Shown here: positions 4,472 through 52,700 of the stretch, piece after piece | Layout: each line of letters starts with the position of its first letter | Position numbering within the stretch: the stretch's first letter is position 1 | Origin: an uncultured Acidobacteriota bacterium | GTDB taxonomy: Bacteria; Acidobacteriota; Thermoanaerobaculia; Gp7-AA8 | NCBI GenBank assembly: GCA_937870635.1 | Contig: CALMZP010000119.1 | Location: 1-56,761 of the forward strand | DNA: 56,761 nt | Direction of reading: 5' to 3' | Position numbers and translations under genes: made by a program | Notes under the pieces: generated by a model | Told to the model about the DNA's origin: nothing | The model's database searches: none | The model's input: only the letters and a program-made list of their open reading frames with translations

Positions 4472-4701
4472 GGTCGTGGCGAGGAGGAGGAGGAGGCGAT
4501 GCGGCCGCGGGCGGGCGAGGTCGCCCGCCCTCCACCGTGCTCGGATTCTTGCGAAGATCAGTGGAGCGCGGGCGACCTCGCCCGCGTCCGGCGGCAGCAA
4601 GCTGCCGCACTTCCTCTGTCATCCCTCGCTCACGCTCGGGATGACACGCTTTTTGAGACGCTCTCCAAGCTGCCGCACTCCAGAGCGATATCATTCCGGA
4701 T
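4472..4701. repeat. GGGCGA-family palindromes plus a TCATCCC hairpin
   Basis: The gap after the TPR gene is repeat DNA. It holds two GGGCGA palindromes, about 4503-4535 (GCGGGCGAGGTCGCCCGC type) and 4559-4589 (GTGGAGCGCGGGCGACC type), then GGCAGCAAGCTGCC, then a separate palindrome at 4618-4645 built on TCATCCCTCGC and GCTCGGGATGA. The 4501-4610 part recurs almost exactly, reversed, at 18536-18650. Confidence 0.85.
4689..4694 (+). promoter_or_regulatory. -10-like hexamer before the receiver stub
   Basis: TATCAT followed by 7 nt and the GTG at 4702. Both the hexamer and the following TCC match the arrangement before the TPR gene at 2904. Confidence 0.35.
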
Positions 4702-18530: not shown

Positions 18531-18650
18531 AGTGCGGCAGCTTGCTGCGGCCGGACGCGGGCGAGGTCGCCCGCGCTCCACTGATCTTCGCAAGAATCCG
18601 AGCTCGGTGGAGGGTGGGCGACCTCGCCCGCCCGCGGCCGCATCTCCTCG
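18531..18650. repeat. GGGCGA-family palindrome block, reverse copy of 4501-4610
   Basis: It contains GCGGCAGCTTGCTGC, a GGGCGAGGTCGCCC palindrome, the CTGATCTTCGCAAGAATCCG spacer, and a GTGGAGGGTGGGCGACC palindrome. The whole block matches the complement of 4501-4610 with only a few differences. It lies about 10 nt after the M28 stop and 25 nt before the mini-receptor stop. Confidence 0.85.
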
Positions 18651-26870: not shown

Positions 26871-26961
26871 GGTCACGAGGGACGAGTGACGGGTGACGGT
26901 GAAGCGTAGTCAGTCGCCGGAGTCCGTGCGTGATGGAGCGCGGGCGACATCGCCCGCGGGT
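26871..26961. repeat. GTGACGG heptamers followed by a GGGCGA-family palindrome
   Basis: Five degenerate 7-bp units of GGTCACG/AGTGACG/GGTGACG type (26871-26904), then a single GGGCGA palindrome at 26933-26961 (GAGCGCGGGCGACATCGCCCGCGGG). A 12-bp direct repeat (TCTGCACGCACG twice) follows. Confidence 0.75.
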
Positions 26962-33185: not shown

Positions 33186-33449
33186 TCTCGCCGGTACCCC
33201 CTCGCTGAACGAACCCACAAGGCGGGAACGGTGGAGCGCGGGCGACCTCGCCCGCGCCCAAAGCGAAGCGCGCCCCCCGACTGCTCGGCGTGAAGACCGC
33301 GGGCTAGGTGGCCCCGCGCTCCACTTCGATAGCCATGAGGCCCAATGCTGCCGGTGCGCCATCGCTTTTTCGCTGACCGATCCCCGCGTCATGTACCTGG
33401 GCCTGGAGGTCGGGCGCGGTGCCCGGTGAGCTACCATGGACTCCGGTCC
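33186..33449. repeat. GGGCGA-family composite repeat and leader of the NarL-type kinase
   Basis: GTGGAGCGCGGGCGACCTCG palindrome at 33231-33260 faces a decayed partner (GGGCTAGGTGGCCCCGCGCTCCAC) ending at 33323, bounded by GTGGAG and CTCCAC. The rest, 33324-33449, is the leader of the kinase gene, with no strong Shine-Dalgarno. Confidence 0.75.
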
Positions 33450-34646: not shown

Positions 34647-35259
34647 CGATCATCCGATCATTCTCGAAGGTCTGTCGCAGCTGTTCCAGCGCGACAAGAG
34701 CTTCAAGGTGCTCGCCACATGCACTTCCGGGCAGGAAGCGATCGCCGCCGTGCGCGCAAACAAGCCGGATGTCCTGGTGCTCGACGTCCGGATGCCCAAC
34801 GGCGACGGCCTGTCCGTGCTCAAACAGATCCACGATGATCATCTGACGACGCGGGTCGTTCTTCTGACCGCTTCGATGGAAGATGACGAGGTCCTGCAGG
34901 CGATGGAGCACGGGGTGTGGGGTCTGGTTCTCAAGGAAGCAGCGGCCGTCTCGCTCGTCGATACGGTGCGGCGCGTCACGAAAGGCGAGCGGACGCTCGA
35001 TCAGTCGATGATCGTCCGCGCGCTCGACCGGATGCTGGAGCGCCAGAACGGAATGCGTCACGCCGCGGAGGTGCTCTCGCGGCGCGAGGCGGAGATCGTG
35101 AAGATGGTCGCCGCGGGCCTGCGCAACAAGGAGATCGCGACGAAGCTCTTCATCGGCGAGGGTACGGTGAAGACGCATCTGCACGCGATCTACAAGAAGC
35201 TGGGAGTCCACGGTCGCGTCGAGCTGACGCTGTACGCGCAGGAGCGCGGGCTCGTCTGA
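34621..35259 (+). CDS. NarL/FixJ-family response regulator
   Basis: Transcription regulator of 212 aa. The receiver has the acidic pocket LADDHP, phospho-acceptor Asp in VLVLDVRMPNGDG, the Thr in VVLLTAS and the Lys in LVLKEAA. The C-terminal LuxR-type HTH has LSRREAEIVKMVAAGLRNKE, then GTVKTHLHAIYKKLGV. It overlaps the kinase by 26 nt, so they form one translationally linked two-component system. An in-frame GTG at 34609 is an alternative start. The targets are unknown. The heptamer array begins immediately after its TGA. Confidence 0.93.
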   Translation: MPTTLVLADDHPIILEGLSQLFQRDKSFKVLATCTSGQEAIAAVRANKPDVLVLDVRMPNGDGLSVLKQIHDDHLTTRVVLLTASMEDDEVLQAMEHGVWGLVLKEAAAVSLVDTVRRVTKGERTLDQSMIVRALDRMLERQNGMRHAAEVLSRREAEIVKMVAAGLRNKEIATKLFIGEGTVKTHLHAIYKKLGVHGRVELTLYAQERGLV

Positions 35260-35487
35260 CCGTTAACCGTTAACCGTTAACCGTTAACCGTTAACCGTTA
35301 ACCGTTAACCGTTAACCGTTAACCGTAAGTCCGCGTATCTGGCCACGTCACCCTGAGCCGCGAAGACGGCGAAGGGTCTCAAGATGCGTAGCCTGAGATC
35401 CTTCGGCGTCTCCGCGCCTCAGGATGACGTGAGGCGTGTCACGCTCCCTGCGGTTAACGGTTAACGGTTAACGGTTAACGGTTAACG
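35260..35487. repeat. CCGTTAA heptamer arrays flanking a palindromic element
   Basis: Nine perfect CCGTTAA units (35260-35322, plus a partial) and five inverted TTAACGG units (35451-35487) bracket the TCACCCTGAGCCGCG palindrome at 35344-35432. The layout is an inverted heptamer pair around a stem-loop. Confidence 0.92.
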
Positions 35488-38892: not shown

Positions 38893-39150
38893 GGGACCCT
38901 GGACCCTGGACCCGGGGACTTCGATTTCGTCCGTGCAGGTGCCGAGGATAGTCGCCTTCGGCTTGATTCGACCTTCGACCTTCGACCTTCGACCTTCGAC
39001 CCTGGACCCTGGGATGTTCCCATGGACTCCGCTTGGAGACTCGAAGGTCGAAGGTCGAAGGTCGAATCGCGCCGAAGCGATAGACGGAAGGAATCGGCGA
39101 AGGCCGAGCCGAAGGTCCAGGGTCCAGGGTCCAGGGTCCAGGGTCCAGGT
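38893..39150. repeat. Nested mirror-image heptamer element
   Basis: Outer arms: GGACCCT units (38893-38919) and AGGGTCC units (39111-39150). Inner arms: TTCGACC units (38967-39000) and GGTCGAA units (39041-39066). The inner arms extend into non-tandem complementary flanks (GATTCGACC on one side, GGTCGAATC on the other, then CCGAAG). The element fills the gap between two convergent genes. Confidence 0.9.
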
Positions 39151-41566: not shown

Positions 41567-44263
41567 ATGAGCCTGCCGCCGGCCGCGGATGCCTCGTTCG
41601 GCCCGTACAGACTGGAGTCCCTCCTCGGAGCGGGAGGGATGGGGGAGGTCTATCTCGCGCGCGATACCCGGCTGGGCCGGAAAGTCGCCGTCAAAGTGCT
41701 CCCTTCGGACGCGATCGGCCAGCCGGGCCGGCGGGAGCGTTTCCTCAATGAAGCGCGGGCAGTGTCAGCGCTGAGCCACCCCAACATCGTCACGATGTTC
41801 GATTTCGGGGAGAACGAGCGAGGCGCCTACCTCGTGATGGAACTCGTGGAAGGCGAGTCCCTCCGGTCAGCGCTGTCTCGCGGCCCGATCGCACCGAAGC
41901 GAGCGCTGGAGATCGCGGCACAACTCGCAGCGGCTGTCGCCGCCGCGCACAGCGCGGGGATCGTCCACCGGGACCTCAAACCGGAGAACGTGATGATCAC
42001 ACCCTCCGGCGACGTGAAGGTTCTCGATTACGGACTGGCCAAGCTCATGGACCTCTCCACCGAACCATTCTCCAGCGCGATCGCAACCGCGGAGTCGCAC
42101 AAGCTGACAGCGACAGGTACGATCGTCGGGACGACTCCTTACATGTCGCCGGAACAGATCGAGGCGCGTCCGGTCGATCACCGCACGGACATCTTCTCTT
42201 TGGGGATCGTGCTGTTCGAGATGCTGAGCGGGCGGCGGCCGTTCGACGGATCGTCATCGGTCGGCATCGCGCACAAGATTCTCAACGTCGAGCCTCGGCG
42301 CCTGACCGATGCCGACGCGGCGTTGCCTCCGGCGGTCGACGACATCCTGGCGAAGGCGCTCGCCAAGAATCCGGCTGACCGATATCAGCATGCCGGTGAT
42401 CTGGCGATCGATCTCCGGCGCGCGAAAGACGGCCGTATCGCACAGCTGACCGCGCCGAGGCCGCAGCGCCCGTCAAGCGCGGCGCGGATCTCCCTCGCCG
42501 TGTTGGCGATCGTCGCTGCGGCGTTCGCCGGTTATCGATTCGCTTCCAGCGCGGCGGTGGTGCCACCACAGCGTTCGCCGTTTGCCGGGATCACCTTCGC
42601 TCCGCTCACGACGGAGCCGGGATACGAAGGCGAGCCGACATTTGCTCCGGACGGCCAGACGATCGCATACGTCTCCGACCGCAGCGGAGATCTCGACGTT
42701 TATCTGAAGCAGATCTCCGGCGGCCCGGACATCAATCTTACGAACCATCCTTCGGATGATCTGCAGCCCGCGATCTCGCCCGACGGCAAACAGATCGCGT
42801 TCGTCTCGACACGCTCCAGTGCCAAGGGCGTGACGTTCGCCAATCCGAACATGCCGCTGCGCGGCGGCGACCTCTGGCTCATGCCACTCCTTGGCGGCGC
42901 GGCGAGAAAGATCGCTGATGACTCTTACTATCCGGCGTGGACGCCCGACGGTTCGGCGATCGTGTTCGTGCGCGGCGCGTGGTCGAACGAGCGGATTTTC
43001 CGCGTGCCCGCGGCGGGAGGAGATGCACAGGAGATCCCGATCGAGATGCCTGAGCATCTCTTCGTTTTGTACCCGGCTCCGTCGCCCAACGGGAAGTGGC
43101 TGCTCTTCAACACCCAGCAGCCGAACGCGATCTACATCGCGCCGCTCGGCGGCGGAAAACCGACGGTACTTGCGGCGGGGCGGCACGGAGTGTGGGGAGC
43201 CGATTCGAGATCTGTCATCTACAGCGACCCCGAGCCTGGCATGCACGGAGCGCTGCACCGCATTCGAGTGTCCGAGAGCGGCGCCGCAGAGGGGGCCCCC
43301 GAGGCAATCACGGCCGGTCCGGGGTCGAGCGTCCATCCTTCGCTCTCGCGTGACGGGCGCTCGCTCGCTTTTGCGGCTCAGGAGATCGTGTTCAACATCG
43401 AGCGCGTGCGGTTCGATCCGGTGGCGGGCAGAACTCAGGGATCCCCGCAGCCCGTTACGACGGGGCAGGCGTCGAATCCTTTCCTGACTGTTTCGCCGGA
43501 CGCGAATGCCGTTGTCTTTCAGTCATTCCGCGGCGGAGCGTCCCACATCTGGCGCGCCGAGGTGGGGACGGGGCTGATGACGCAGCTGACCGGCGATCCG
43601 GGGAACAGCGACCGAATCCCGCGCTGGTCGCCCGACGGTTCACGCATTGCGTTCGTACGGTCCGCGGGGATCAACGAGAACAGGGGTGGGGGCGTCTGGA
43701 TCATGAGCGCAGATGGTGCAGGACCGCGGCCGGTCGCGCCCGGAACGGCGTTCATCTCGTGGATGCCCGACGGGCGTTCCATCACTTTCTTCGATGCGAA
43801 GAAACGCCAGATCATCATTCACGATCTCGAGACCGGGAAGGATCGTGCGCTCACCGACGACGAAGCCGTGCGCTCGTTTCACGTGGTGTCGGCCGACGGG
43901 CAGTGGATCGCGTACCAGGTCATCGGCACGCGCGGCACCAGCGATATCAAGGCAAGGAATGTGGATGGATCGGCACCGCTGAAGGTCGTGGCCACGGATC
44001 GAGAGGACGGCCATCCGTTCTTCGCACCGGACGGGCGTTGGCTGTACTACCAGAACGACCACAAGAATGTGTATCGAGTTCCCGGTCCGGCGCAGAACTG
44101 GCGGAAGGCCGAGCCGCAACAAGTGACGCACTTCCCGGAGTCGAATCTCTACATCGAGGATCCGCAGCTCTCGCCGGACGGGAGATGGCTGTTCTATTCG
44201 CGCCGGCGCGCCAGCAGCGATGTGTGGCTGGCGACGATTCCGGCGGATACCGTTAACCGTTAA
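41567..44263 (+). CDS. Transmembrane Ser/Thr protein kinase with TolB-like beta-propeller
   Basis: Protein of 898 aa, PknB/Stk-type. Kinase: GAGGMGEVYLA glycine loop (about 21-31), VAVKV Lys (about 43), HRDLKPENVM catalytic loop, DYGLAK in place of DFG (Phe to Tyr, still permissive), MSPEQ and HRTDIFSLGIVLFEMLSG. A single membrane helix at about 307-330 follows, and the extracytoplasmic part is a WD40/PD40 (TolB-like) propeller with repeated FAPDGQTIAYVSDRSG-type blades. The layout fits sensing outside and signalling inside. The last four residues (TVNR) and the stop are encoded by the CCGTTAA array. It is divergent from groES. Confidence 0.93.
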   Translation: MSLPPAADASFGPYRLESLLGAGGMGEVYLARDTRLGRKVAVKVLPSDAIGQPGRRERFLNEARAVSALSHPNIVTMFDFGENERGAYLVMELVEGESLRSALSRGPIAPKRALEIAAQLAAAVAAAHSAGIVHRDLKPENVMITPSGDVKVLDYGLAKLMDLSTEPFSSAIATAESHKLTATGTIVGTTPYMSPEQIEARPVDHRTDIFSLGIVLFEMLSGRRPFDGSSSVGIAHKILNVEPRRLTDADAALPPAVDDILAKALAKNPADRYQHAGDLAIDLRRAKDGRIAQLTAPRPQRPSSAARISLAVLAIVAAAFAGYRFASSAAVVPPQRSPFAGITFAPLTTEPGYEGEPTFAPDGQTIAYVSDRSGDLDVYLKQISGGPDINLTNHPSDDLQPAISPDGKQIAFVSTRSSAKGVTFANPNMPLRGGDLWLMPLLGGAARKIADDSYYPAWTPDGSAIVFVRGAWSNERIFRVPAAGGDAQEIPIEMPEHLFVLYPAPSPNGKWLLFNTQQPNAIYIAPLGGGKPTVLAAGRHGVWGADSRSVIYSDPEPGMHGALHRIRVSESGAAEGAPEAITAGPGSSVHPSLSRDGRSLAFAAQEIVFNIERVRFDPVAGRTQGSPQPVTTGQASNPFLTVSPDANAVVFQSFRGGASHIWRAEVGTGLMTQLTGDPGNSDRIPRWSPDGSRIAFVRSAGINENRGGGVWIMSADGAGPRPVAPGTAFISWMPDGRSITFFDAKKRQIIIHDLETGKDRALTDDEAVRSFHVVSADGQWIAYQVIGTRGTSDIKARNVDGSAPLKVVATDREDGHPFFAPDGRWLYYQNDHKNVYRVPGPAQNWRKAEPQQVTHFPESNLYIEDPQLSPDGRWLFYSRRRASSDVWLATIPADTVNR

Positions 44264-44270
44264 CCGTTAA
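44250..44270. repeat. CCGTTAA heptamers overlapping the kinase stop
   Basis: Three CCGTTAA units plus a partial fourth. The TAA of the kinase (44261-44263) is the end of the second unit. Confidence 0.92.
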
Positions 44271-44569
44271 CCGTAACCGGCCCGCGTTGTGTGCGTGACG
44301 GCGGGCAGAAGCGAGGCGCAGCGAAGCAGATGCTGCCGTCCCGCCCACAACCCTCCGGGCTGGTGGCGGTTACGGCCCGCTCGCTTCGTTGCTCGTCGTC
44401 CGCGATGTCCCAGCATCGCCTCCTCCTCGCGCCTCGCGTTCGGGCCGTAAGCGCCACCAGCGCGAGCCACTCTGGATTTCTTCACAGCCTCTGAGCCGCG
44501 AAGGCGGCGAAGGGCCTCGAGCTACGTAACCTGAGATCCTTCGGCGTCTTCGCGCCTCAGGATGACGTG
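44271..44569. repeat. Unannotated inverted repeat and palindromic element
   Basis: 44360-44379 and 44441-44460 are 20-bp inverted arms with one mismatch (CTGGTGGCG, then GTTACGGCCCG) around a 61-bp loop. 44488-44569 is a full copy of the TCACCCTGAGCCGCG palindrome. No protein is visible in this stretch. Confidence 0.8.
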
Positions 44570-44608: not shown

Positions 44609-44678
44609 CGGTTAACGGTTAACGGTTAACGGTTAACGGTTAACGGTTAACGGTTAACGGTTAACGGTTAACGGTTAA
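44609..44678. repeat. TTAACGG heptamer array (ten units)
   Basis: Ten perfect CGGTTAA units, inverted relative to 44250-44270. It ends 11 nt before the -10-like hexamer of the deacetylase gene. Confidence 0.95.
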
Positions 44679-44689
44679 CCGTCCTGCGC

Positions 44690-46309: not shown

Positions 46310-47350
46310 ATGGCAGCCGTTCGATTCGACAACGTCGTCAAGCGGTACGGCCCGGTCTCGGTCATCGAAGACCTCTCCCTCGAGATCAAGGACCATGAGT
46401 TCATGGTGCTGGTCGGCCCCTCCGGCTGCGGCAAATCGACCGCGCTCCGGATGATCGCCGGTCTCGAAGACGTCACCGCCGGCACGATCTCCATCGGCGA
46501 CAGCGTCGTCAACGACCTGCAGCCGAAGGATCGCGACACCGCCATGGTCTTCCAGACCTACGCCCTCTATCCGCACATGAGCGTGCGCGAGAACCTCGGC
46601 TTCGGCCTGAAGATGCGAAAGACGCCGAAGGCCGAGATCGACCGCCGCGTCAACGACGCCGCCTCCATCCTCGGCATCACACCGCTCCTCGATCGCAGGC
46701 CGAAGCTGCTGTCAGGCGGCCAGCGTCAGCGCGTGGCTCTCGGCCGCGCCATCGTGCGGCAGCCGGCGGTGTTTCTGTTCGACGAGCCGCTCTCGAACCT
46801 CGACGCCAAGCTGCGCGTGCAGATGCGCGCGGAGATCACGAAGCTGCAGCAGCGGCTCGAGACGACGGCGGTCTACGTCACGCACGATCAGGTCGAGGCG
46901 ATGACGATGGGCCATCGCATCGCCGTGATGAACGCCGGGCGGATCGAACAGGTGGGCACGCCGCTCGAGGTCTACGATCGTCCGGCCACGATCTTCGTCG
47001 CGCAGTTCATCGGTACGCCTCCGATGAACTTCTTTCCCGCGAAGGTGCGCGATGGGCGGCTTGAAGCCGAATCGTTCAGCATCCCCCTCGGACGTTCGAT
47101 CCCATCGACGGACGTTCTCGTGGGCATCCGCCCCGAGAGCTTCCGCGGCTCAGCGGCGCAGATCCAGGCGAAGGTCGAACTGGTGGAGATGGTGGGCCAT
47201 GAAGCCGTCGTCCATCTGCGCGCGGGGGAGATCCCGTTGATCGCCACGTACGAAGCACATCAGGCGCCGAAGCTGGGGGAGACGACCGCCCTCGGCGTGG
47301 ATGTCGCGCGGATGCATCTGTTCGACAAGTCGACGGAAAAGCGAATTTAG
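46310..47350 (+). CDS. MalK/UgpC-type ABC transporter ATPase
   Basis: ATP-binding protein of 346 aa. Walker A is GPSGCGKST, the Q-loop FQTYALYPHMSV, the signature LSGGQRQRVALGRA, Walker B FLFDEPLSNLD, and the H-loop VTHDQ. The C-terminal TOBE/OB region (GIRPESF) marks it as a CUT1 carbohydrate ATPase (MalK, UgpC, MsmK type), one that can serve several permeases. No permease or binding-protein gene of this class is adjacent, so it is an orphan ATPase here. Its TAG (47348-47350) contributes the first base of the 117-bp palindrome. Confidence 0.92.
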   Translation: MAAVRFDNVVKRYGPVSVIEDLSLEIKDHEFMVLVGPSGCGKSTALRMIAGLEDVTAGTISIGDSVVNDLQPKDRDTAMVFQTYALYPHMSVRENLGFGLKMRKTPKAEIDRRVNDAASILGITPLLDRRPKLLSGGQRQRVALGRAIVRQPAVFLFDEPLSNLDAKLRVQMRAEITKLQQRLETTAVYVTHDQVEAMTMGHRIAVMNAGRIEQVGTPLEVYDRPATIFVAQFIGTPPMNFFPAKVRDGRLEAESFSIPLGRSIPSTDVLVGIRPESFRGSAAQIQAKVELVEMVGHEAVVHLRAGEIPLIATYEAHQAPKLGETTALGVDVARMHLFDKSTEKRI

Positions 47351-47466
47351 AAGTGTCCTGGTGTCAGGTCTGCAAAAACAACTTTTCTTCCAATAGTGGT
47401 GTGCGCATTGCGCACACCACTATTGGAAGAAAAGTTGTTTTTGCAGACCTGACACCAGGACACTTC
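47350..47466. repeat. 117-bp perfect palindrome (58-bp arms, 1-nt centre)
   Basis: The arms 47350-47407 and 47409-47466 are exact complements with a single T at 47408 between. It fills the gap between two convergent stop codons (TAG 47348-47350, TGA 47465-47467) and could act as a bidirectional terminator, though it has no U-tract. Its sequence is not related to the GGGCGA or TCACCCTGAG families in this window. Confidence 0.97.
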
Positions 47467-47902
47467 ATTCCGCGCCCGGGGGTGCCTGGCCGTAGACGTG
47501 CCGGTCGTGCGTCGCCAGATCGAATGGCTGCAGCCGCGGATTCGCGGGATACCCCCGATGCACGGCCTGGCAGTCGTAGCAGACGATCACGTCCTTCACC
47601 ATGCGCCAGACGATGTAGTCGAGGATCGTGACTCCGAGGAGCGAGAGACCGTACGTCCAGGGAACGAAGATGGAGCCGACGACGACCAGGGCGATGCCGG
47701 TCTTGCGGTTGAAGTCTTTCTGAAAGTAGAGCTGATCGTGGCCGCACGCGGCGCAGCGATCGATGATCGAGCCCACGGGTGGTGCGGTGACAGGGGAGGG
47801 GGCGCGGCAGTGTTCGCACGGCTGCGACGGCTCGCCCGCTTCGCGGCCGAGCCGCCGCTCACATGCTGTACAGAGGAAATGGACTGAGGCCACGCGGCCC
47901 AC
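47465..47902 (-). CDS. Zinc-ribbon protein with two membrane helices
   Basis: Protein of 145 aa. Four CxxC pairs: CTAC (11-14), CEHC (29-32), CAAC near 50, and CYDC near 108. Two hydrophobic helices (TGIALVVVGSIFVPW, YGLSLLGVTILDYIVWRM) sit between the third and the fourth pair. It probably has a cytoplasmic zinc ribbon at each end. The GTG start is 3 nt after the EF-P stop, so it is likely co-transcribed with efp. I do not recognise its function. Confidence 0.8.
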   Translation of the reverse strand: MGRVASVHFLCTACERRLGREAGEPSQPCEHCRAPSPVTAPPVGSIIDRCAACGHDQLYFQKDFNRKTGIALVVVGSIFVPWTYGLSLLGVTILDYIVWRMVKDVIVCYDCQAVHRGYPANPRLQPFDLATHDRHVYGQAPPGAE

Positions 47903-49686: not shown

Positions 49687-49722
49687 TGGACCATGGACCC
49701 TGGACCCTGGACCTTGGATCTT
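49687..49722. repeat. GGACCCT heptamer array between convergent stops
   Basis: Five GGACCCT/GGACCTT units fill the 41-bp gap between TAA 49683-49685 and TGA 49727-49729 of the convergent M16 gene. Confidence 0.9.
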
Positions 49723-49726
49723 TGAC

Positions 49727-52700
49727 TCAGGGCAGCCAGAAATCGCGGCCGTACAGCCGGTGGAGCTTTGAATCCGCGCCTTCGACTTCCCTCAGGTACT
49801 CCTGCCAGGCGTCGAGCTGTTTTTCGGGGCCGATGACGAAGAACACGCCGTCCGGGACCTCGCTCGCCTTCACGTTGTAACCGGGGATGAAGCGGCCGTA
49901 GACGCGGTCTTTGCGATCGAACAGGATGTTGCCGAGGTTCGGGTCTTTCCGGAGCTCGAGGATGGACTGCCGGAATTTGCGAACCATGTCCGGCGGCTGG
50001 TTGTCGGCGAGATCGGCGGCGAGGGCTTCCGCGCGTGACTCGTAGCTCGCGGCCGCGCGGTTTTCGGCGAAGACCTGAGCCACCGCGTAATCTCCGAGCT
50101 TCGGATCGCGAGCCGAGGTTTTGAGCTCGTTGACGACGAAGCGAACGGTCTGGGGGAGTTCCGGCGTTCGCTCGGCGTAGTAGCCCATGCGGCCGCCCGC
50201 GACATTGGCGCGCAGGCCGTTGCTGTAGGCGAGGCCCGCGCCGATGGTCTTGAGGAAGATGCCATGAGCCCCGTACCCCGCGTGAAGGCGCGAGGCGAGA
50301 AAGTCGAGCTGCTTCTGTTTGTCGTTGAAATCCGAGAAGTGCGCGCCGGGCACCGAGGTGACGATGACGCCGCCGGGTTTGTTCGGATTGAAAAGTCCAA
50401 CGTGAACAGGCTTGGTATCAGGCATACGCTGCCGCAATCTCGCGACAATGTGTGGAGCGCGGGCGATCTCGCCCGCGGTTCTTGATTCTGCCGAAAGCGT
50501 CTTCACCAGCTCCCCAAGCTTCGGCGTGAGCGCCTTCTCCATCTCACCCGATCCGACCACGTACGTCCGGGCATTGGCGCGCCGCAGGATGTGCTTCCGG
50601 AGCGCATCGAGGTTCTGCAGTGCGACGGCCGGCGGCGTGAAGAGGTCGTCCCGCAGCGCCTGGACGAGGTAGCTCCAGTCGGCGGCGAGGCTGTCGTCGG
50701 GAATCTCGATCAGGGTCAGGTCGAGATCCTTCAGCAGATCGGTCGCGATCGCATTCGGTGCGGGAGCTGCGATCAATTCCTTGAGCTGCGCGCGGGTCTT
50801 GCCGCTCGCCGCCGCGGCCAGATCGTTGAACCACTTCGTAAGCGCTTCGCGATCGGCCACGGGCGCCTCTTTCAGCAGCCAGCGCAGACGCAGCGCGTTG
50901 TGGGAGCGGGTGAGGAACGAATCGGCCGCGAGGAACGTCGGGTTGTGCTGCATGCGCCACGCGTTCGGCGGGTTCTGGACCCACGATTCTTCCGAGCCCT
51001 GCGTCGTGTTGCGGAGGTTGCTGAGCGCCTGGTCGACCACGTCGCGGATGCGCGGCAGGTTCTCCGGCCGCCAGTCCGGGGCGCTGAGGATGAGGTTCAT
51101 CCAGTCGATCGAGCGCCGCGCTTCGTCCGCCCCGATGCCCGATCCGCGCACGACGAGCTCGAGGCGCTCCGTGCGCGGATTGGTCACGAAGAACGCATCG
51201 AGCGAAAGGATCTCCTTGCGCAGGCGCTCGCTCATCTCCTCGAACGACACCGGTTTGCCGTTCTCGATCACGCCGCTGCGCGAGAGCAGTCCCGGGAGCA
51301 GCGACAGGTAGCGCAGCTGTTCGCGCGGGATGCCGTCGAGACGCAGGGCCAGCCCGGTCATGCCGCTCGACATCGCGTCGAACCGTGAGACGACGAAGGG
51401 AACGCCCTCGACTGATTTGGCCGCGTACTGGAGCGAGTCGTCGAGCGTCATCGGCGGAGACGACACGAACTCCGGCGTCGCGATTTTCTTCGCCTCTTCC
51501 TCGATGCGCGCCGACTCGGCGTCGTAGGCGGCGCGGTAGCGGCGGATCGCATCCTGCTCGTCCGCCACGCCGAACTCCTGCTTCAGTCTCTCGGCTTCTG
51601 CTTTCGCGCGCGCGACGCGCTCCGCGTCCTCGCGCTGGATGAGAGCCGGGCTGGGACGCGCCGCGACGGCGTACGGCACGGTGTTCGTGATCTGCCACTT
51701 CGAGAGATACCGGGTCCAGAAGTTCTTGTTCGTGGCCAGCTGCTTGCGCACGAAATCGAGCTGCGGATTCATCGTCAGAGACTTCTTGAACGACGGCGTG
51801 CGCTCCAGCGCCAGCAGCGCATCCATCCAGCTCGACCCCGACCCTCGGAAACCGAATCCGGGAGGGGAGTTGACGAACTTGGCGAGATCGCGCTCGAGCT
51901 CCGTCAGGCGGTTGGCGATCCGCTCGTTGAATTCCTTCAGCTCCGGCGAGCTGTCTTTGAATGCGGCCACGCGCGCGAGCTCGTCGGTCACGATCTTCCG
52001 GATCTCGGACAGGCGCGCGTCGTTGAAGTTCGACGGAGCGACGTCGGTCATGGCGATGTAGATCGGATGGCCGCCCCAGTCGCCGACATTGCTGAAGATC
52101 TGCTTGGCGCCGATGTCCAGCTTCCTCGTCTTGCTGTCGATGAAGAGCTTGTAGAGATTCGTCGTGGCGTCGCCGGCGAAGTTGTCGAAGAAGAGCTGCG
52201 CCAGGATCTGCTCGCTGAGGTCGAGGTCGCGGTTCGCCGGCCACCACAACCCGATGGGGCTCGGCTGCTGCTCGTTGCGATGCGGATATTCGGTGTACCG
52301 GATCGCACCCGCCGGGGCCGGCTGTGCCTTCGGCAGCGAGTCGAGCGAATGGGCGGGGCGCTTTTTGCCCGATGGATCGACGGTATCGAGGATCTTGTCG
52401 ACTCGCGCGAGGATGCCGTCGATCGGAACGCTCTTCGGGAACGAGGCGATCGTGCCCATGTTGCCGAGGAAGTGCGTGGAGGCGTGGAAATCGCGAATGT
52501 GTTTCGGCTGCATCGTCCGGATGCCCGACGGCTCGCCGCCGGAGTTCATCGCCAGAGGATGGTTCGGTCCGTAGACCGCGTGGCCCGCCGCGCGGAAGAG
52601 CTGCCGGTACGGGTTGCCGGTCGAGCTCACCATCTCGTTGTAGACGGAGCCCTTCTCCTCGAGCCGCAGCGTGCCGTCCGGATTCCGCGTGACGCCGAAA

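Follow-up and report, generated by a model that had tools for sequence, protein, structure and literature searches.

The perfect palindrome at positions 47350-47466 of the window (the whole stretch of 56,761 nucleotides that was analysed) is very probably a non-autonomous mobile hairpin of the RAYT/TIRYT kind (TnpA-REP, IS200/IS605-like). It consists, on this reading, of two inverted copies of one transposon end, for which the mobilising enzyme, acting in trans, is the HUH-Y1 transposase encoded on contig C157 of the same genome, possibly along with relatives of this enzyme. The palindrome belongs to a family that is dispersed in the genome, has its ends in common with an intact transposase gene, shows concordance of the two arms within copies and is placed next to stop codons. 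The interpretation that fits the family best is a REPIN-like dimer built from a TIRYT terminal inverted repeat with GGkGTCAG ends.

The palindrome and its surroundings

Arm comparison and folding bear out the perfect palindrome of the preliminary description: the arms (47350-47407 and 47409-47466) comprise 58 nt each and are 100% complementary, the spacer being a single T at 47408. It is the longest perfect inverted repeat of the window, and its exact symmetry is far above chance level. The RNA fold of 161 nt around the palindrome has an energy of -122.7 kcal/mol (z -19.6), which was equalled by none of 200 shuffled sequences; for the DNA fold around 47350-47466, the value is -74.3 kcal/mol (z -22.6). 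A search of Rfam with the palindrome gave just sub-threshold matches, to hairpin families.

The genes for an ABC ATPase and a small zinc-ribbon protein form a convergent pair around the palindrome (Table 1). The coordinates agree with the earlier statement that the left arm starts in the stop codon of the former and the right arm ends inside that of the latter: the G of the TAG (47348-47350) is the first base of the left arm, and the TGA (47465-47467, minus strand) contains the right-arm end. The outermost 5 bp of either arm (GAAGT/ACTTC) lie outside the mobile core and are site-specific, yet complementary. The core common to the family copies begins GTCMTGGTGTCAGGTCTGG...

Table 1. Positions in the window of the palindrome, its parts, the adjacent genes and a second repeat family
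Feature	Position	Strand	Remark
ABC transporter ATPase, UgpC/MalK type	46310..47350	+	stop TAG 4 nt before core
Small zinc-ribbon-like protein	47465..47902	-	stop TGA 3 nt from core
Whole perfect palindrome, 58 + 1 + 58 (117 letters)	47350..47466	none	arm comparison and folding
Mobile core GTCCTGG...CCAGGAC	47355..47461	none	common to dispersed copies
Left arm	47350..47407	+	47361-47396 has 1/36 mismatch to left end of C157 transposase element
Right arm	47409..47466	-	exact complement of left arm
Terminal motif GGTGTCAG	47360..47367	+	cf. GGGGWSAS of TIRYT inverted repeats
Terminal motif GGTGTCAG, inverted copy	47449..47456	-	from sequence
GAAGT, site-specific flank	47350..47354	+	pairs with opposite flank; copy comparison
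ACTTC, site-specific flank	47462..47466	+	its TC is part of the zinc-ribbon gene stop codon
Inner hairpin, A-rich before, T-rich (GTTGTTTTT) after	47386..47430	none	terminator-like, both strands
Second repeat family GTGGAGCGCGGGCGACCTCGCCCGCG	2758-2826, 4510-4586, 18556-18632, 26933-26958, 33231-33256, 50452-50477

An empty site for the window copy was sought in relatives and none was found: the window site could not be aligned, the relatives being too diverged. In the closest family relative, two other genes and a different hairpin lie between the orthologues of the flanking genes, and the zinc-ribbon gene ending ...GGAATGA was found again in a family relative. A different large palindrome (GCTTCTGTGTGGCGCC...) is located about 20 bp from the orthologous zinc-ribbon stop of a family relative (L208:3900-4010, G002).

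A dispersed family in the genome

The genome searched is a draft assembly of 4.52 Mb in 171 contigs. It contains about 45 dispersed copies or half-copies of the palindrome, 30 of them complete; the matches obtained by BLAST include the partial copies. A 14-mer with one mismatch allowed gave 79 matches in the genome versus 2 for the reversed control. The 30 complete copies were placed and compared, and the arm, type and stop-codon counts reported below are based on them. The preliminary description had called the palindrome unrelated to other repeats. This is correct within the window, where the only two hits are its own arms, but not genome-wide, where the proposed search for the arm leads to about 45 matching places. 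A family of this size also contradicts the idea of an isolated recent event.

In the family copies, the core starts with GTCMTGG, without the GTAG tag that is canonical for REPs; a TAG occurs in the copy flanks at variable distance and is mostly a stop codon. The motif GGTGTCAG is present in most copies of this genome, and GGGGTCAG, an exact GGGGWSAS, in the C2 and C26 copies.

An intact transposase gene with the same ends

Among the three Y1_Tnp genes of the genome, the one on contig C157 (L068:3234-4235, G000:C157) encodes a protein of 333 aa in which HVH60-62 and Y119 are intact. The protein scores 34 bits against the Y1_Tnp profile (cut-off 23) and 67 bits against REP_Tyr_transpos, under the cut-off of 80; the sole solved relative found was TnpA-REP 4er8 (E 1.8e-7). 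Both sides of the gene carry ends of the palindrome family (39 nt, 85% complementary), and the right end codes for the last residues of the transposase. The protein has a C-terminal extension. Pfam finds no HTH in the protein itself and detects Bac_DnaA_C or HTH_23 at the C-terminus of 5-6 of 15 aligned relatives. Judged by size, architecture and flanking repeats, the enzyme appears to fit TIRYT / TnpA-REP subclass 2.1 / RAYT group 1 (PMC3733652, PMC6006769).

The impression that GGTGTCAGGTCTGC looks like a RAYT-type end proved sound, as the same kind of end flanks the C157 gene on both sides; likewise, the search for a RAYT or IS200-type transposase elsewhere led to this HUH-Y1 gene. The mobile hairpin considered at the outset gains its support from the dispersed family and from the C157 gene with the same ends, whereas we infer the mobility itself.

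Placement at stop codons and the terminator question

A long ORF ends close to the core in 19 of the 30 copies, its stop codon being 1-4 nt away. Positions at this distance from a stop make up 1.85% of the intergenic bases per end (457 kb of this genome), which gives P ~2e-20; since the background was derived with a crude gene finder, this value is meaningful only as an order of magnitude. The copies of Duganella lactea show the same placement, with TAA stops. Moreover, the bases bordering the core on its two sides tend to pair with each other: the mean run is 2.07 in this genome versus 0.81 after shuffling, and 3.08 versus 1.46 in D. lactea, where shuffling was between copies; the observed run was reached by none of 5000 shuffles in each genome. 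It has been described before that REPs lie close to stop codons (PMC3733652; PMC12306157), and REPs inside small palindromes were noted in other species (PMC3733652). According to a rough estimate, targeting of the stop-like triplet sequence alone is too weak an explanation, because in-frame stops are a minority of such intergenic triplets.

It is conceivable, if rather doubtful, that the palindrome is a host-selected bidirectional terminator between tight convergent genes, which was spread or kept for ending both transcripts. The palindrome lies exactly between two convergent stops, and a terminator scan matched it on both strands. At an orthologous Duganella/Massilia site, 9 of 22 rows have TIR palindromes, which differ between species, right after the same TAA; other rows contain ordinary hairpins, for example CGGGGGCCATCCGGCCCCG-TCTTTTTT in L271. 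As palindromes or plain hairpins alternate behind the same TAA, the elements sit at the position of terminators. The L272 palindrome has its CCCCGTCTTTTT border in common with the L271 hairpin. Furthermore, 30 of 52 ends in D. lactea possess an A-run giving a T-tract after the hairpin. By contrast, a flanking A/T tract accompanies merely 2 of 60 ends in the genome under study; here the T-tract is internal to the arms termed A below and is missing from those of types B and C. Among 28 classified copies, 13 have convergent neighbours, but 12 lie between co-directional and 3 between divergent genes, and the homology to transposase ends is left unexplained. The bidirectional terminator of the preliminary description is thus plausible with respect to the scan on both strands and the terminator positions in Duganella, but unproven, given the missing flanking tracts.

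The relatives L274 and L275 differ at the Duganella site: in place of the full palindrome of its neighbour, one has a short CCGGGGTA stretch, which looks like the remnant of a largely deleted element.

Homodimers of transposon ends and concordance of their arms

The two ends of the C157 element are distinguishable: the left end is of type A (AAAAACAACTTTTC), the right end of type B (GACATTGGACATTTC), and they differ at 8 of 36 positions. A-A palindromes account for 22 of the 30 copies, mostly with 0-3 and, in the most diverged, up to 5 mismatches to the left end. Five copies are B-B-like, having 2-6 mismatches to the right end, and three are of a third type (C-C) that matches neither end; there is no mixed-type palindrome among the 30. 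As all of them are homodimers of one end type, they are not left-right internal deletions. A MITE that arose by internal deletion of the C157 transposon, joining the left end to the right, is for this reason very unlikely and was rejected: both ends of the element are recognisable in the family, but these parental ends are unlike each other, while every palindrome is made of two copies of a single type. The palindromes of Massilia sp. TS11 are also closer to one end than to the other, though less sharply. Against the mobile hairpin itself count the C-C subtype, which matches neither C157 end, the sub-cut-off REP_Tyr_transpos score of the C157 protein, and the absence of the GTAG tag.

Comparison of 38 nt in the 30 copies gave 44 within-copy mismatches between the arms versus a mean of 194 with shuffled partners; shuffling never gave fewer than 135, and the observed number was reached in 0 of 2000 trials. 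In D. lactea, the arms are perfect in all 26 distinct placed copies, despite 11 different arm sequences, and 25 of the 26 have 37-nt arms around a 3-nt loop. Such a match would be hard to reach through independent compensatory mutation and fits arm-to-arm copying or a fold-back birth. Quasipalindrome template switching is a known form of arm-to-arm copying (PMC7202029, PMC8604942).

From these patterns we infer that palindromes of this family are cut, moved, repaired arm against arm and used in termination. At a single-stranded site, such as the lagging-strand template, the palindrome would fold as a long hairpin, whose GTCMTGGTGTCAGG foot would be recognised by the transposase; the enzyme would then cut the hairpin and rejoin it beside another gene end. 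Replication across the hairpin, with template switching between the arms, could keep the arms identical, and a copy between convergent genes may double as a bidirectional terminator or 3'-end hairpin. No instance of transposition was observed in the genomes compared. A more specific version is tentative: each palindrome might be a fold-back copy of a single transposon end that inserts at or in short palindromes (terminator hairpins) by stop codons, keeps part of the target as complementary flanks and is re-perfected by arm-to-arm copying. It would then be a self-correcting hairpin that trades places with terminators.

Assembly, age and persistence of the palindrome

That one arm was read through the hairpin and mirrored during assembly is highly improbable. 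The assembly is a draft of many contigs, and about ten contig ends lie inside family copies, as expected where short reads meet palindromes. The window copy, however, is situated well inside its contig, where it is bordered by two different, intact genes, and the same architecture, with arms of differing sequence, is met again in many copies and in other genomes, in part within very long contigs; the caution expressed earlier about an artefact is not supported. A unique, recently formed palindrome or an excision scar, to which the perfect symmetry might point, can practically be dismissed and was rejected on the basis of the ~45 copies, which equally contradict the scar proposed in the preliminary description; since perfect arms are the rule in D. 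lactea with its 11 arm types, perfection gives no date for a copy.

The persistence of the palindrome had been considered noteworthy on account of cleavage by SbcCD. This argument is weak: a profile search for SbcD, whose model recovered 13 of 14 controls, gave no match in the genome, and among 41 genomes of the class, only 3 had an SbcD score above the cut-off. With SbcD undetectable, the persistence requires no special protection. Loss of SbcCD as a specific cause was likewise rejected, because SbcD is also undetectable in most relatives and its absence is thus not specific to the genome with the palindrome.

Occurrence in other genomes

The strict pattern GGTGTCAGGTC-N55-85-GACCTGACACC was scanned in GTDB species genomes and gave at least 100 matches. 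Among the matches listed are Massilia, Duganella, Rugamonas, Spirosoma and other Bacteroidota, Acidobacteriota, Nitrospirae, Planctomycetota, Desantisbacteria and others; part of the matches are not clean palindromes, for example repeated GGTGTCAGGTCTC runs in Acidobacteriota. The strict palindrome was found in none of the 40 closest genomes of the collection, and the distribution of the family is therefore patchy. Massilia, Rugamonas, a Planctomycetota MAG and a deep-sea MAG contain relatives of the transposase that are bounded on either side by GGkGTCAG ends; for the Duganella transposase gene, the upstream GGkGTCAG end is present within the stretch examined. The exact GGGGTCAG also occurs in the Massilia and Planctomycetota ends. 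Judged from these sequences, elements that appear to be of the same design are found in several phyla.

At a second Duganella site (L310; D. lactea, G041:C72 ~60946), the genes joined at the palindrome lie far apart in other Duganella, which suggests a rearrangement by recombination between copies. No simple empty site was found there, the flanking genes being non-adjacent in relatives.

Comparison with known systems

The closest parallels are the TIR families of TIRtrons/TIRYTs (Di Nocera 2013, PMC3733652) and TnpA-REP subclass 2.1 / RAYT group 1 (PMC6006769), which also have an HUH-Y1 transposase with a C-terminal extension, here with an HTH in several relatives. As in TIRtrons/TIRYTs, there are long flanking inverted repeats with a GGGGWSAS-like motif (here GGTGTCAG, and GGGGTCAG in two copies), and the repeats are dispersed as dimers, intergenic and near gene 3' ends. 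The GGGGWSAS motif is common to several, not all, published TIRs (PMC3733652). The family differs in that the motif of most copies, GGTGTCAG, has one mismatch to GGGGWSAS, and in its full-length, near-perfect homodimers of ~110 bp with within-copy arm concordance.

With REPIN/BIME elements served by group 2-3 RAYTs (Bertels and Rainey 2011, PMC3116915), the family shares an inverted pair of ~100 bp forming a hairpin, compensatory changes, one dedicated transposase and intergenic siting. Inverted dimers are the rule in the family (30 complete copies), but a REPIN sensu stricto has GTAG/GTGG at the foot of a short REP hairpin, and here there is neither this tag nor the short hairpin; the symmetry extends across the whole element and the transposase belongs to another group. 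For most GTAG/CGTC REPs flanked by convergent genes, the distance to either stop is at most 20 bp (PMC3733652), and E. coli REPs lie within 15 nt of stops (PMC12306157), whereas the gap is mostly 1-4 nt in this family and the flanking bases tend to pair. Arms also become identical in the template-switch homogenisation of quasipalindromes (PMC7202029, PMC8604942, PMC8794818), which was described for mutation hot spots and RNA genes and would here act on a mobile family. A literature search for the sequence motif of the family gave no paper with this motif; the matches were judged unrelated by title.

The evidence in this family is unusually clean with respect to homodimers of ends, arm concordance and siting at stop codons or terminators. 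It touches on the still-open questions of how REP-like hairpins spread, why they are sited by stop codons and how long palindromes stay perfect. The co-changing arms and the homodimers matching either end of one transposase element are clean, countable material, and the orthologous site with different mobile hairpins or ordinary terminators after one stop codon is useful for the same questions. With one transposase, one hairpin and long-read data for comparison, the mechanism can be put to the test.

Other repeats and transposases

Seven-base tandem arrays (ACCGTTA/CGGTTAA) form inverted pairs between genes of the window at 35259-35326, 35451-35487, 44249-44279 and 44609-44679; further 7-mers are located at 38967-39149 and 49687-49718. 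The second palindromic repeat family, GTGGAGCGCGGGCGACCTCGCCCGCG, has 9 matches in the window versus 0 expected, often as inverted pairs. It recurs in the flanks of a further Y1 transposase gene in this genome (C139, L090:2621-3163; REP_Tyr_transpos 104 bits), and the two therefore look like an ordinary GTGG-tagged REPIN/REPtron system. The third Y1 transposase gene (L091:2319-3393, G000:C170) has perfect 30-nt flanking inverted repeats, TGAGGGTCACGTCTGCACTTCGCACTTTCT.
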